A DNA stretch of 40,025 nucleotides. It comes from Nitrospira sp. GTDB taxonomy: Bacteria > Nitrospirota > Nitrospiria > Nitrospirales > Nitrospiraceae. The position numbers and the translations under genes were made by a program. The notes under the pieces are model-generated. The model saw only the letters and a program-made list of their open reading frames with translations, searched no databases and was not told where the DNA came from. Position 1 is the stretch's first letter. Each line of letters starts with the position of its first letter. This document shows positions 12,975-40,025 of this stretch, in pieces. Location: assembly GCA_005116885.1 (NCBI GenBank), contig SWDP01000007.1:105921-145945 (forward strand), written 5' to 3'.

Positions 12975-14174
12975 TCAGTCGACCTGCTTGCGCAGGAAGG
13001 TGGGTACATCCCACTCGTCATCAGTGACCGCGGCAGCGCGTTCCATCGATACTCTTCCATCTCCCATCCGCCGCAAGTAGGTTGGGCGATCGAAATCTTT
13101 GAAGGGCCGCTCCGCGTACGATCGTTCTCCCACCGTCTGGCCGGCGCCGCTGGTCACCGTCTGTTGCACAGGACGGGACGCCCGAACCGCGGCCACGGGA
13201 ACCGGAGCAGGCAGATCCTCCCGTTCAAACCCTGTCGCAATCACGGTCACAACCAAGTCATCGCCCATATCGGGGTTGATCACCTGTCCAACAATGATGT
13301 TGGCTTCAGGGTCAGCGGTCTGTTGAACAATCGTCGCCGCTTCCTCGATCTCATGCAACGTCATGTTGGGCCCACCGGTGATATTCAGCAACACCCCACG
13401 TGCACCCTCGACACTCCCCTCCTCCAACAACGGACTACAAATCGCCTTTTGCGCCGCTTCGATCGCTCGATTCGTTCCGCGCGCCACGCCCATCCCCATC
13501 ACCGCGCGGCCCGTATGGGACATGACGGTTCGGACATCGGCGAAATCCACATTGACATGGCCGGTGGTCGTGATCACATCGGCAATTCCTTGAATGGCCT
13601 GCCGGAGGACATCATCAGCGACCTTAAACGCTTCGAGCAGCGGCGTCGCTTTGTCGACGATGCCGAGCAATCGCTGATTCGGGATTATCAGTAAGGTGTC
13701 AACATGCCGGCGGAGATCGCGGACCCCTTCGTCCGCATGGAGCATCCGGCGATGACCTTCATACGAAAAAGGCTTCGTGACGACCCCGACCGTCAAGATA
13801 CCGAGTTCACGCGCGATACTCGCCACAATCGGCGCGGCACCCGTTCCGGTTCCACCGCCCATTCCGGCGGTCACGAACACCATGTCGGCGCCCTCAAGAC
13901 ACTCCCGAATCTGATCTTTGCTTTCCAGTGCCGAATCCTTTCCGACTTCTGGCTTGGCCCCGGCGCCGAGCCCTCTGGTCCGTTCAGGGCCCAGCTGAAC
14001 TTTATACGACGCCCGCGATCGTTCCAACGCCTGCAGATCCGTATTCGCCGCGATGAAATCGACCCGAGCTAATCCGGACGTAATCATGGTGTTCAACGCA
14101 TTACACCCGGCGCCACCGACACCGATCACTTTAATCCGAACGGGAGACACAACATCCTCTTCAAACGAAAACAT
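12975..14174 (-). CDS. ftsZ: Cell-division GTPase FtsZ
   Basis: The tubulin-like protein that forms the division ring. The GTP-binding loop GGGTGTG is at about 106-112, the N-terminal [11 protein letters not shown] and the T7-loop [11 protein letters not shown] are intact, and the C-terminal peptide [13 protein letters not shown] should bind FtsA. The reading frame stays open to 14225, but the ATG at 14174 has AAGGGAGGTG 6 bases upstream and starts with the normal MFSFEED. This gives 399 residues and a 54-base gap after ftsA. Confidence 0.98.
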
Positions 14175-14228
14175 CAGGACACCTCCCTTGATAAAATCCG
14201 CAAGGCGGACATTCGCCTCACGCATCGG

Positions 14229-36060: not shown

Positions 36061-36440
36061 GTTCTCCTCCTTAATCCATTGATAAAAGCGGGAATCGGGA
36101 ACGGGTCGGTTTCTTGAACGTCCAGCAGCAATTCTTTGCGTAATCGCCGGGGGTGAACGCACCTGCATGGATGGAAGGCTCTTATGGGCGAGACCATCGG
36201 GCATCACCTCCTCTAACTCTGAACCTTGGGCGCCCGACAATAATTAGGCAGATCCGCATAAGCTACGGTCATTCGATTTCCAATCCCACCCTCCATCAGT
36301 TACTGGCCATGTTGCCATTTATCACGATATCGTATGCGGATTGGCATAACATACCCTCCCTGGAGGGGTCCATAACCCGTCCAGCGGACTATGAATGCAC
36401 GCCGGTCCACGGTTGAGGGGTAGCCTGGTCGATCCTCAAG
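36061..36440. other. Intergenic stretch upstream of the propeller gene
   Basis: About 380 bases with the ribosome site of the downstream gene, a degraded repeat at 36232-36268 and a small palindrome CCCTCC-CT-GGAGGG (near 36353-36366). No gene or clear promoter is recognised. Confidence 0.45.
36232..36268. repeat. Copy of the element at 39943-39979
   Basis: About 37 bases align with 39943-39979; both contain GATCCGCATAAG followed by ACGG, preceded by a degraded or intact GCCTAACAAT. The copy at 39943 looks like an attC end, so this may be a decayed cassette boundary. Confidence 0.5.
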
Positions 36441-36801: not shown

Positions 36802-37121
36802 TCACTCCGGCAGTTTCTTGCTCCGGGTGGAAAGCCTGCCTGGCCGAAGCAGGCGCTCGCTGCGCATGACGTACAGAATGAACAGGCGGGTGCCTTCTGG
36901 CCGATAGAAAATACGGCAGGGAGGTTCGACAATCTGTCTGTAGCGCCAGCCCTCCAGCTCCGGTGGCTTTGAACCGCTCCTGGGGTGATCGGCCAATTGC
37001 CCCACATGGCGAAATACTTTCTGTACAAGGCGCATTGCCGATTCTGGATTGTCCAACGCGATGTGTCGGCGATGGCATCCAGGTCGTTCAGCGCCGGTTC
37101 CGTCCAGATTACTTCAGCCAT
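36802..37121 (-). pseudogene. ParE/RelE-family toxin, frameshifted
   Basis: The frame from ATG 37121 gives MAEVIWTEPALNDLDAIAD. The rest of the toxin (LDNPESAMRLVQKVFRHVGQLADHP through FILYVMRSERLL) lies in the next frame from about 37060 to 36802. One base is missing between 37064 and 37065: restoring a T would make GAC-TAC-ATC-GCG-TTG-GAC and join them into a normal 106-residue toxin. Members of this fold either cleave ribosome-bound mRNA or poison gyrase. It overlaps its antitoxin by 13 bases. A sequencing error would look the same. Confidence 0.85.
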
Positions 37122-37366
37122 CGGGCCATGCGCTGCTTGGCCTGGGCGTGGCTCAGGGTGCGCCCTTCCTCAAGGGCGCGTTCCCCGCGGGCGATGCCTT
37201 CCAGCAGGCTTATCCGGCGTTGCAAGATCTCATAGGTTTCAATATCCACGAGATAGGCACTAGGTACCCCATGCCGGGTAATGAGAATGGGCTCCTTGCT
37301 CCGTTCCAGATCGGACAGGAGTTCCGTGGCTTGGCGCTTCAGGGCAGTGACAGGTTCCGTTCGCAT
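37109..37366 (-). CDS. Phd/YefM-type antitoxin
   Basis: 85 residues. The N-terminal part (residues 1-50: MRTEPVTALKRQATELLSDLERSKEPILITRHGVPSAYLVDIETYE) is the Phd/YefM DNA-binding fold, and the C-terminal helix should wrap its toxin. It precedes and overlaps the ParE/RelE-type toxin gene, the usual order. An imperfect inverted repeat with TGGT and ACCA arms lies just upstream at about 37374-37392 and may be the self-repression site. Confidence 0.88.
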   Translation of the reverse strand: MRTEPVTALKRQATELLSDLERSKEPILITRHGVPSAYLVDIETYEILQRRISLLEGIARGERALEEGRTLSHAQAKQRMARWLK

Positions 37367-37477
37367 AAAGTGGTACTAAAGTATCACCATGCGCAATGCA
37401 AGCGGTTTGAGGCTGGAGCGATTGTTTGGGCGGCAACCCCGTTATGACATACAGGCCAGCCTGTTGCTGAAAAGAAC

Positions 37478-37490
37478 GGGGTCTGACCTC
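37478..37490. repeat. GGGGTC-N-GACCYC palindrome, copy 3
   Basis: GGGGTC-T-GACCTC followed by TTTG, very like copy 1 on its right side. It lies in the gene-free stretch 37367-37568, between the Phd/ParE and BrnT modules. A short palindrome ACAGGC-CA-GCCTGT is at 37451-37464. Confidence 0.75.
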
Positions 37491-37568
37491 TTTGTTTTGT
37501 CTAGGAATCTGGCAGGTTTCTGTTCAGGACTCTAAATTAATCAGACTTTCCCTAGCTGAACCTACTGG

Positions 37569-37841
37569 TTAAGCAGCCGTTCGCTTACGGCGTGCGGAGC
37601 CCTTGCGGACCCGTCGCGACTGTCTCGCTGTCGCGCCAGCCGCATCCCGCAGGACACGCAGTGCCCGGTTCACGGAAGCGGTGTCCGGAAATACCTCTGC
37701 CAACTCTGGATCAATCAGCACAAGATTTGTTCCTGCCACTGCCCGCTGGTAATACTTGCCGCGAACGCCCCCTTTAAGCTTTGACAAATCATACTCGGGC
37801 CGGAGTTCGTCTTTCATCGCCTTAGGTGAGACCTTTCGCAT
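37569..37841 (-). CDS. Probable antitoxin partner of BrnT
   Basis: About 90 residues. The core RPEYDLSKLKGGVRGKYYQRAVAGTNLVLIDPELAEVFPDTASVNRALRVL occurs in small antitoxin-like proteins; it is not the ordinary BrnA ribbon-helix-helix sequence. The C-terminus is strongly basic (RKGSARRKRTAA), suggesting nucleic-acid contact. I chose the ATG at 37841, which has AAAGGA upstream; ATG 37856 is possible. It overlaps the brnT gene by 20 bases, in the toxin-first order of brnTA operons. Confidence 0.75.
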   Translation of the reverse strand: MRKVSPKAMKDELRPEYDLSKLKGGVRGKYYQRAVAGTNLVLIDPELAEVFPDTASVNRALRVLRDAAGATARQSRRVRKGSARRKRTAA

Positions 37842-38100
37842 ATTGCTTCCTTTCATTCGGTGTCGCCCGCCTAGCGCTTATGATCCGAATTCGGCCATCG
37901 CGATCGCAATGCGAGAGAAACAGCACACGGCCCCTTGTCGACACGCCGATCGTGATTTCACGCCGCTCATCCTCTGAATGGTCTGGGTCGTCGAAGGTGA
38001 ACGCCTTTGCATCCTGAAATACTGAGGCCGCTTCCTCAAATGAAACACCGTGCTTTCTTCGGTTCGTTTGAGCGTTTCTCGGATCCCATTCATAGGTCAC
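37822..38100 (-). CDS. brnT: BrnT-family ribonuclease toxin
   Basis: 92 residues of the DUF497/BrnT fold, complete: YEWDPRNAQTNRRKHGVSFEEAASVFQDAKAFTFDDPDHSEDERREITIG, then RVLFLSHCDRDGRIRIISARRATPNERKQY. The family is related to RelE and cleaves RNA. The only suitable start is GTG at 38100. With its downstream partner it forms an apparently intact type II module. Confidence 0.92.
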   Translation of the reverse strand: MTYEWDPRNAQTNRRKHGVSFEEAASVFQDAKAFTFDDPDHSEDERREITIGVSTRGRVLFLSHCDRDGRIRIISARRATPNERKQYAKGLT

Positions 38101-38267
38101 TCCGCTACGATAGCATGTCCCGCACCGTTAGGCGAATAGGCACTAGCCGTATCGGCAAAGGAAAGCCATCGACCTGTCAGACGTAACATGGATAAAGCGC
38201 CTCAGGAAATTCAATGCGCAGCGGACGAGCCATCGCTTATCCAAGACGATGTCATATAACAAGATGT

Positions 38268-38280
38268 GACCCCTATTTTT
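38268..38280. repeat. Half of the GGGGTC palindrome, copy 4
   Basis: GACCCCTATTTTT, the right arm of the element; the left arm has decayed (AAGATGT). It provides the stop codon of the truncated HEPN gene (38273-38275). The adjoining 38101-38267 holds no recognisable gene. Confidence 0.6.
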
Positions 38281-39097
38281 TACGCGCAATTGCATATGTG
38301 GCTTGAAGCGATTCGCTTTGTTTGTCCTCCCGCCCATGAGCAGCATCCGATCTTGAGTCGTATAGCTTCGCGATCGCTTTTTGAGCATTCATCCTGGGAA
38401 TGCCAGCTGGTTCTAAAAAGCTGGCAATTGCGCTCGACGTCCGATACCGAAGTTCGGCCTTACTCGGAGAGAACACAGCCTCAAGCCCACCCCAGAGCCA
38501 CACCAGCGCCAGTTCTGCGTGCTAGGCAAAACATGCTTGGTCTGCCGCGACAAATAGCCGCCCAAATGGGCCTTGCTCATAGAACAGTCGGGAAGATGCC
38601 AGCCAATGATTACCGACCCAAGCGAGGTCGAGCTCAGTGGCCGTGCGTCTGGCTTTCGGGTCCAAGATTAGAAACCTCTGCTCGGTTTCAATAAGGCAGT
38701 ACTTGGCCTCGTCGTGCCTAATCTTTGCGTTTTCGAAGGACTGCTCGCCCATCACAGGCACGCAGAATGCGGGGCCAAGGCGCAGGCGAAGGAGAGCAGT
38801 GATCCACCAAGCAATGAACTGCGGATCGAGCGTATGGCTAACAAACGTCGTCGGTGGCACTTGGAGTTGAACATGAATATCGAATGCCAAGCCACCGCCC
38901 GCCGCCGACCACGGTGCCGAATGATGCTTGCCGGGTGGCGCTGGCGTGTACGCCATCATGAAGTGAGCCATCAAGTGAGCGTACGTTTGCGTCAGGCGAA
39001 TGCCTGAGCCGAGCTCATATTCGGTCGGCCCGAGTTGAAGGTCGGCCAAGCCTGTGAATATCCCCTTGGACGTGTCCACCTTAGCCTTTGCTGCCAT
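38273..39097 (-). pseudogene. HEPN (ApeA-like) protein gene with amber stop, 3'-truncated
   Basis: The frame from ATG 39097 gives 191 residues, then TAG at 38522-38524, then continues in the same frame with HAELALVWLWGGLEAVFSPSKAELRYRTSSAIASFLEP...AIAKLYDSRSDAAHG to 38273. The second part has the HEPN motif RSDAAH (Arg-x4-His) and an ApeA-like layout, so the stop splits a real gene; CAG to TAG would explain it. The last HEPN helix is cut by the repeat at 38268-38280. The N-terminal 190 residues are not recognised. The ATG overlaps the attC core, as in a cassette. Readthrough cannot be excluded. Confidence 0.75.
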
Positions 39098-39167
39098 CTA
39101 ACGTTTGACATGAGCGGCAGGCGACGGGCGCAGCCCGTTGCCTGTCCGCTCAATGGAAGGGTTAGAC
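39096..39167 (-). mobile_element. Integron attC recombination site
   Basis: On the minus strand the 72 bases begin GTCTAAC and end GTTAGAT, matching the attC outer cores. Between them GAGCGG/CCGCTC, CAGGC/GCCTG and ACGGGC/GCCCGT pair with single unpaired bases and a TGC tip, giving the long bulged hairpin of folded attC. The stop codon of the upstream ORF (TAA, 39162-39164) lies in the left core and the start of the downstream ORF lies in the right core. No integrase gene is in the window. Confidence 0.9.
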
Positions 39168-39920
39168 ATCTTTCGCCCCTTCCGCAGCCAAGGATGCCCG
39201 AAGCTTTTCGGTTATGCGCTGCAGGCGCTGAATAGCAGGCTTGTTTACAGCTGTCTTGTGATCAACGATACCGTGAACGATCTCGTTGCGGAGTCTGCGG
39301 AGGTCGTCAATCTCCTTAGCATCTGATGGCTTGAAGACTCCCTGCTTGATCAACTCGTTGATTGCCATCATCGGAGGCCTCGTTCTGCCGCCAAGAGTTG
39401 AGAGCTTATCAATGTGTTGAAGGCTGACCTCAGCGATAACGCGCTCGAACGCAACCCATGAAGCAAGGAACTCGCCCAGCAGTTGGTGTTGGTCTTCGGT
39501 CTCGAAGGACAGCACGGTCTCAAACAAGCTCTCGAACAAGAGCTTTGCCAGTTCTGAATAGACTTCGACCTTGTCTCGGTCAACGGTGAGACCGTTGCCT
39601 TGGTGGTAGAGCTGATTTCTCAGGCGATGAAACCACTCGATTTCGCCCAAGTCGATGCCCGCAATCTTCAGCGACGCGTATTGCTCCAACGCATCGAGGA
39701 GCTTCGGAAAGCTTTCGCTGAATTCAACGTAGTCTTTTCGAGGGACGACGATTCCGTTTATGCGCTTTGGCAGACCGAGATAGGTCTTGATTGTGAGTTC
39801 GACAGCGTTGTCAACGCTGAGGAGAGCAAGGCGACGGTTCTTGTCGCTATCCTTTCGAAGGAGTGCGATTCCGTGTTCCAGGATCTCTCTTGGCCCAGAA
39901 GCCCAAGGTTGTGTTGCCAT
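39162..39920 (-). CDS. Protein with two HEPN-type motifs (integron cassette ORF)
   Basis: 252 residues, intact, function unknown. Two separate Arg-x4-His motifs of the HEPN type occur in similar contexts: RLRNQLYHQG (R101-H106) and RLRNEIVHGI (R211-H216). Each is preceded by a helical region (LLSVDNAVELTIKTYL; LLGEFLASWVAFERVIAEV). HEPN domains are often RNases of toxin-antitoxin, CRISPR and abortive-infection systems, and two in one chain could form an internal dimer active site. The ORF ends inside the attC core and starts 22 bases after a GTTAGGC, the full pattern of a gene cassette. No separate antitoxin is adjacent. Codon use looks less GC-rich than the core genes. Confidence 0.8.
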   Translation of the reverse strand: MATQPWASGPREILEHGIALLRKDSDKNRRLALLSVDNAVELTIKTYLGLPKRINGIVVPRKDYVEFSESFPKLLDALEQYASLKIAGIDLGEIEWFHRLRNQLYHQGNGLTVDRDKVEVYSELAKLLFESLFETVLSFETEDQHQLLGEFLASWVAFERVIAEVSLQHIDKLSTLGGRTRPPMMAINELIKQGVFKPSDAKEIDDLRRLRNEIVHGIVDHKTAVNKPAIQRLQRITEKLRASLAAEGAKDV

Positions 39921-39942: not shown

Positions 39943-39979
39943 GCCTAACAATGCTTAGACCGATCCGCATAAGAAACGG
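39943..39979 (-). mobile_element. Possible right end of another attC site
   Basis: On the minus strand GTTAGGC (39943-39949) precedes the ORF start at 39920. The flanking GTCTAAGCATT looks like part of an attC arm. The left core is not seen before the window ends, so only a half-site or a decayed site is supported. A diverged copy lies at 36232-36268. Confidence 0.4.
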
Positions 39980-40025
39980 AACTGCCATTTTCTAACCGCG
40001 CAACACGCCATCGGTTCTCTCGAAA

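Follow-up and report, generated by a model that had tools for sequence, protein, structure and literature searches.

HEPN domains are frequent in defence and HEPN proteins have already been described on integron cassettes (PMC3710099), and phage defence is known to be stored in integron cassettes (PMC12409362); for anti-phage cassettes of sedentary chromosomal integrons, the activity was shown by expression (Darracq et al., via PMC12409362). For the phylum of Nitrospira, IntegronFinder 2.0 gave two clusters of attC sites lacking integron-integrases (CALIN), both in N. inopinata (PMC9024848); these three papers are cited from excerpts. We analysed a 40,025-nt stretch of a Nitrospira sp. genome (the window; C17:105921-145945, where C17 is contig SWDP01000007.1 of a 3.19-Mb genome in 49 contigs that is 83.9% complete) and found that the minus strand encodes a small protein with two HEPN-type motifs (gene 1) and, behind it, a broken second gene (gene 2). 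In transcription order, this strand reads attI-like site, gene 1, attC, gene 2 pieces and a transposase-like remnant, after which come BrnT-, Phd- and ParE-type genes. A 100-N assembly gap starts right at the window end (C17:145946) and hides the sequence upstream of the attI-like site. Gene 1 is the first cassette at the attI-like site of a chromosomal Nitrospira integron and, judged from its sequence, qualifies as a good candidate for a new family of tandem-HEPN cassettes. The features that concern gene 1 are as follows.

39162..39920, minus strand: gene 1, predicted tandem-HEPN protein of 252 aa (open reading frame, alignment, profile searches, predicted structure)
39603..39620, minus strand: R-x4-H motif of HEPN domain 1 (R101..H106, RNQLYH; from the sequence), at the end of helix 91-106
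39273..39290, minus strand: R-x4-H motif of HEPN domain 2 (R211..H216, RNEIVH; from the sequence), at the end of helix 198-215
39096..39167, minus strand: attC, 72 nt (hairpin search and covariance model)
39943..39972, minus strand: attI-like site TTATGCGGATCGGTCTAAGCATTGTTAGGC, directly before gene 1, with 0 mismatches to the attI pattern (C17:145863-145892)
39973..40025, minus strand: remainder of the attI region, the expected place of the cassette promoter, degenerate-looking when compared by eye with six other copies

A first-pass annotation of this DNA had noted a doubled motif, and the 252-aa open reading frame (ORF; 39920..39162) does carry both R101-x4-H106 and R211-x4-H216. We found that R101, N102, H106, R211, N212 and H216 are without variation in 42 of 42 aligned family members, so both motifs are more than chance; the alignment (A2) left out 7 of 48 loci (L038, L041, L045, L048, L062, L063 and L065) in which the ORF is short, shifted or extended. 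In the AlphaFold model (predicted local distance difference test score, pLDDT, 92.8) each motif lies at a helix end, with R101/H106 closing helix 91-106 and R211/H216 closing helix 198-215. Domain 1 is predicted to be a HEPN-type helical bundle with its motif at the end of helix 3, the same position in which the R-x4-6-H motif of HEPN domains sits (PMC3710099). In structure comparison, domain 1 resembles HepT-type toxins (PDB 7bxo, 6m6w, 5yep) at 13% identity in the structural alignment; these matches barely cover the residues beyond 136 (137-252). The HEPN identity of gene 1, which the annotation had made dependent on a four-helix bundle, thus survives both the predicted structure and the fold match. 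In domain 2, 9 of 11 weak PDB profile matches are HEPN-type (best E 0.013), residues 172-245 give Pfam HEPN matches below threshold, and R, N and H are the sole invariant residues of the family alignment at 26% mean identity. By sequence, then, domain 2 has both the HEPN motif and HEPN-type character. No Pfam family passed its cut-off with the gene 1 protein, the best being HEPN_RiboL-PSP with 23.1 bits against a cut-off of 28.4, and PDB searches with gene 1 or with its profiles did not list the integron cassette HEPN structure 3jrt.

When we scanned genome contigs, we found 48 relatives of gene 1 in many bacterial groups as well as archaea, with a patchy spread: 4 of 100 near genomes have the gene, its own genome included. 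Four plasmid records, all from Leptospira, and two viral contigs contain relatives, and phage records gave no match to gene 1. The gene 1 protein is 78% identical to that of L018 (Manganitrophaceae) and 75% identical to that of L019 (Pseudomonas khazarica), where codon differences number 151 and 162 at third positions as compared to 32 and 35 at second positions and dS is beyond calculation. The protein identity and the excess of third-position differences indicate that the family is old and under strong purifying selection, which is measured here between hosts, not within this Nitrospira host. Single members weakly match HEPN models (of 42, HEPN_RiboL-PSP in 14, Csx1/Csm6 in 13, DUF4145 in 8, HepT-like in 6 and HepT_toxin in 4), and none of Pfam, NCBIfam and PADLOC has a model dedicated to this family. 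Two relatives are extended: in L038 (6001-7014) the second HEPN His is lost and there is an extra C-terminal coiled-coil-like stretch with a CPLCG motif, and in L062 (5992-7083) about 125 C-terminal residues of unknown kind are added and the second His is kept. In L019, a TIR/SEFIR gene adjoins the gene-1 relative.

Between both genes of the window, where an attC site had been called in the first pass, we found the 72-nt site at 39096-39167 as a single long hairpin with R''/R' boxes GTCTAAC/GTTAGAT; the gene 1 stop codon lies within the R'' box and the gene 2 ATG overlaps R'. At the stricter threshold, 171,279 shuffled bases gave 0 attC-like sites; at the looser one, a single other place in the window appeared (13286-13371), which has a weaker folding energy and lies within ORF 12975..14225. 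A covariance model likewise gives 39096-39167 as the only attC in the window, the site being itself one of the ten sequences from which the model was built. We ran this model over 53 sources, corresponding to 52 unique gene-1 loci (L023, L037 and L059, which repeat the genomes of L015, L014 and L016, were left out here and in the neighbour scan). In 13 of 52 loci (10 with E≤0.01), the gene has an attC on its own strand no more than 60 bases away, as compared to 0.23 expected, with gene limits set roughly by hand for L015, L048, L063, L099 and L100; without the training members (the window and L040), the count is 11 of 50, 8 of them with E≤0.01. In all eight loci that have a downstream attC, it starts 4-5 nt before the gene end. 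The 13 loci come from organisms, as given in the record titles, that we take to belong to Nitrospirota, Acidobacteriota, Pseudomonadota and Desulfobacterota. In the Halomonas locus L060, the relative is the first gene after a divergent integrase ORF and has attC on both sides, and this ORF coincides with a place that scores over the IntI cut-off (298.9 bits, profile 68-315); IntI scored over cut-off in 11 of 36 host genomes (36 of the 48 were searched). The remaining 39 of 52 loci are without an adjacent attC, so the family also lives outside integrons. Repeated cassette capture, one of two origins the annotation had offered for its pair of genes, fits these counts, and its proviso that homologues might never occur in integrons does not apply to gene 1.

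On its other side, gene 1 is preceded by the attI-like site, which ends in CTAAGCATTGTTAGGC. A site of this type, with 2 mismatches, also occurs in the Nitrospira genome G016, where an integrase gene scoring above the TIGR02249 cut-off ends about 150 bases before it and an ORF and then an attC come after it. In this integron (L092:2552-3958), intI is codirectional with the cassettes and its 3' end precedes the attI-like site. The attI-like site, gene 1 and attC, together with the G016 parallel, place gene 1 in the first-cassette position. In the window's own genome, which is 83.9% complete and has the gap adjoining the attI-like site, no integron integrase scored over the cut-off.

We then counted such sites across the genus and found that the attI pattern (up to 3 mismatches) has 61 matches, spread over 27 of 32 Nitrospira genomes, as compared to 0 for the reversed pattern, and that only 2 of the 32 have an IntI over cut-off. 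Further counts refer to the 28 distinct copies in the loci that we fetched, not to all 61, and some of these loci are short enough to hide an attC. An attC is present within 2 kb downstream of 18 of 28 copies, and an intI 3' stub, recognised by an integrase C-terminus match better than that of any of 60 shuffles, lies upstream of 13 of 27 readable copies. The other 14 of 27 readable copies are without a stub. G019 also has an IntI over cut-off, but there the nearest copy is about 2.1 kb from intI, the stretch between them being occupied by attC-bounded ORFs. Because of this distance, the case for a link of site and integrase consists of a single intact example (G016) and the intI stubs. The same G019 (Nitrospira sp. 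RSF3) has three attI-like copies within 3 kb (L014:6366-9232), each before an ORF, together with a repeated intergenic unit. There is also a palindrome upstream of attI-like sites. Given the scattered copies and this palindrome, we considered that the 39943-39972 site could be a mobile repeat, such as a miniature inverted-repeat transposable element or the end of an insertion sequence; we disfavour this because the G016 site stands between an intact intI and a cassette with attC and because the intI stub precedes 13 of the 27 readable copies. Against this stand the copies without a stub and the G019 distance, which may reflect secondary spread of the attI-like site itself. The likeliest reading of these sequences is that a Nitrospira genome holds several eroded integron platforms, and the setting of gene 1 suggests a longer integron history in Nitrospira than the two CALIN reported in the excerpt of PMC9024848. 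We regard the novelty of the scattered attI-like sites as provisional.

The window had been described as carrying two adjacent HEPN cassettes; this stands for the gene 1 cassette but not for an intact gene 2, which has an in-frame TAG and lacks its 3' end. Its pieces, and the remnant at which they end, are as follows.

38522..39097, minus strand: gene 2, 5' piece, 191 codons and then TAG (38522-38524) (ORF, relatives)
38273..38521, minus strand: gene 2, frame continued, with RSDAAH at 38336-38353 and the 3' end missing (read-through compared with relatives)
38170..38272 (limits approximate), minus strand: transposase-like remnant (MARPLRIEFPEALY...) (partial genome copies)

The 191-aa ORF (39097..38522) stops at the TAG, the frame continues to 38273, and R249-x4-H254 is located only in the stretch after the TAG. 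The frame ends about 28-32 residues short of the two full relatives of gene 2, at the transposase-like remnant. The TAG may be a sequence error of the metagenome assembly; the 3' end is missing independently of it. Neither the hairpin criterion nor the covariance model found an attC behind gene 2 in the window, so its cassette is incomplete. The closer full relative (301 aa, on a Sphingomonas plasmid) is 36% identical over 266 residues, and the second, a 350-aa ORF in genome G028, is 29% identical over 271 residues. Relatives were found in 1 of 99 other near genomes, in 1 plasmid record and, as a partial match, in 1 genome among 398 from the phylum to which G101 belongs; in viral contigs none was confirmed. 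All three known gene 2 sequences share R-S-x-A-A-H, and hhalign aligns the gene 2 region with gene 1 domain 2 at a probability of 57% and with the whole-family profile at 32%. The conserved motif and the 57% make "HEPN-like" a fair but not proven description of gene 2. The read-through protein and its two relatives have no Pfam match up to E=10, the gene 2 pieces have none in Pfam, PADLOC or NCBIfam, and no ApeA is among the two PDB matches of the gene-2 profile. An ApeA label, as first given to gene 2, is therefore dropped; ApeA chains have 593-619 aa as compared to 301 and 350 aa for the gene 2 relatives.

Downstream of both cassettes, toxin-antitoxin genes of BrnT, Phd/YefM and ParE types lie at 36802-38100. 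The remnant before them we take to be a RAYT; with 38130-38300 as query, four further partial matches (74-88% identity) were found in the genome. In L067, by eye, a BrnT-like ORF is the first gene behind the attI-like site and is followed by an attC. At 36244-36349 there is an inverted repeat with 29-nt arms (72% complementary) that has GATCCGCATAAG in common with the palindrome upstream of attI-like sites; it is perhaps another platform remnant.

The two genes could form a unit, as effector and regulator or toxin and antitoxin, and a two-gene immunity unit was the other origin suggested in the first pass. They are adjacent and codirectional with HEPN-type motifs in both, and in L014, L017 and L022 the gene-1 relative has next to it a different ORF that carries R-x4-H or R-N..H. 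However, an attC lies between the genes, gene 2 has its TAG and lost end, and a tblastn search of the window and 88 loci with gene 2 showed the pairing only in the window and in copies of the same stretch, so that in these loci the homologues do not occur together beyond it. In L014, L017 and L022, these neighbours gave neither a Pfam match (among ten hand-picked proteins checked) nor a sign of kinship to gene 2, and they fit the capture of similar small cassettes better than a fixed unit. Across 51 loci, ORFs near the gene showed no enrichment of an R-N..H-like motif (8 of 173, as compared to 7 of 195 for far ORFs, p=0.41). Of the motif-bearing ORFs, roughly half of those nearby and one or two of the far ones look HEPN-like by eye. 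With gene 2 broken, the pair unseen in the other loci searched and motif-bearing neighbours not enriched, we reject the two-gene unit as very improbable.

We instead favour, at even weight, the reading that gene 1 is a self-restrained two-HEPN RNase cassette released by infection and that gene 2 is a separate, decaying capture. HEPN protomers form a composite site in the dimers of HepT and Csm6, and two HEPN domains do so in Cas13. In gene 1, the two HEPN domains would pair inside one chain to form a single composite active site, in which case no partner subunit or separate antitoxin would be needed. The protein would hold its own activity off until an infection signal releases it, and RNA would then be cut, leading to abortive infection. 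Gene 2 would be a second, separate HEPN-like cassette behind gene 1, the pair arising by serial capture, and within this explanation it is likely a decaying bystander. As first annotated, no antitoxin adjoins gene 1, which sits between the attI-like site and gene 2; an MntA-type nucleotidyltransferase antitoxin was not found adjoining it either, the next genes being BrnT-, ParE- and Phd-type and the upstream side hidden by the gap. Because cassettes store phage defence, HEPN domains are common in defence and no antitoxin adjoins, gene 1 is, by analogy, probably anti-phage; PADLOC has no dedicated model that matches its family.

The same protein could instead be a dormancy or growth-arrest toxin, an HEPN RNase that is active under stress or keeps the array stable and is not phage-specific. 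Integron-cassette HEPN domains were proposed in 2013 to be dormancy-inducing RNases (PMC3710099), domain 1 has a fold match to HepT toxins, and BrnT- and ParE-type toxin genes are found downstream in the window; the missing antitoxin gene by gene 1 and, by eye, the lack of a recurring partner near its relatives speak against this reading, which we consider somewhat unlikely. Gene 1 could also be inert cargo, captured, poorly expressed and useless to this host, as its degenerate-looking promoter region (by eye), the decaying neighbouring cassette and the lack of an IntI over cut-off in an 83.9%-complete genome would suggest; since gene 1 is intact and its family is under strong purifying selection, though measured between hosts, we regard this as unlikely. 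It is improbable that the HEPN domains, or one of them, only bind RNA or protein and do not cut: HEPN families without the motif, or described as inactive, do exist (PMC3710099) and the RNase activity of gene 1 is a prediction, but both domains keep R, N and H in 42 of 42 members, and in domain 2 these are the only invariant residues.

Taken together, what is new here is a family of small chains with two conserved HEPN half-sites that reaches from Nitrospira to archaea and is repeatedly accompanied by attC. If gene 1 is a phage-triggered RNase, its trigger could be searched for with a single gene and two motif pairs. More tentatively, and less likely than not, the family may represent a new self-contained class of anti-phage RNases in which about 250 residues would combine sensor, lock and composite two-HEPN site and no guide RNA, second messenger or antitoxin would take part; it would have spread in bacteria and archaea partly as cassettes and be fed in Nitrospira by scattered attI-like sites, possibly with integrase in trans.

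Compared with the anti-phage cassettes of sedentary chromosomal integrons, gene 1 is alike as a small single-gene cassette, but its anti-phage role is a prediction, whereas theirs was shown by expression. The integron cassette HEPN family of PDB 3jrt is likewise an HEPN protein on an integron cassette, and the excerpt of PMC3710099 does not mention tandem domains for it, whereas gene 1 has them. HepT of the MntA-HepT system (PDB 7bxo, 6m6w, 5yep) has one HEPN domain, whereas gene 1 has two in a chain and differs further in that no MntA-type antitoxin gene adjoins it in the window. Unlike the Csx1/Csm6 CRISPR ribonucleases, gene 1 is without a separate CARF sensor, both halves of its 252 aa being HEPN-type. 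Gene 2 and ApeA are alike in having R-x4-H near the C-terminus, but gene 2 is about half as long and gives no profile match. Like Cas13, gene 1 has two R-x4-H HEPN motifs in one polypeptide, in a protein about a quarter of its size.
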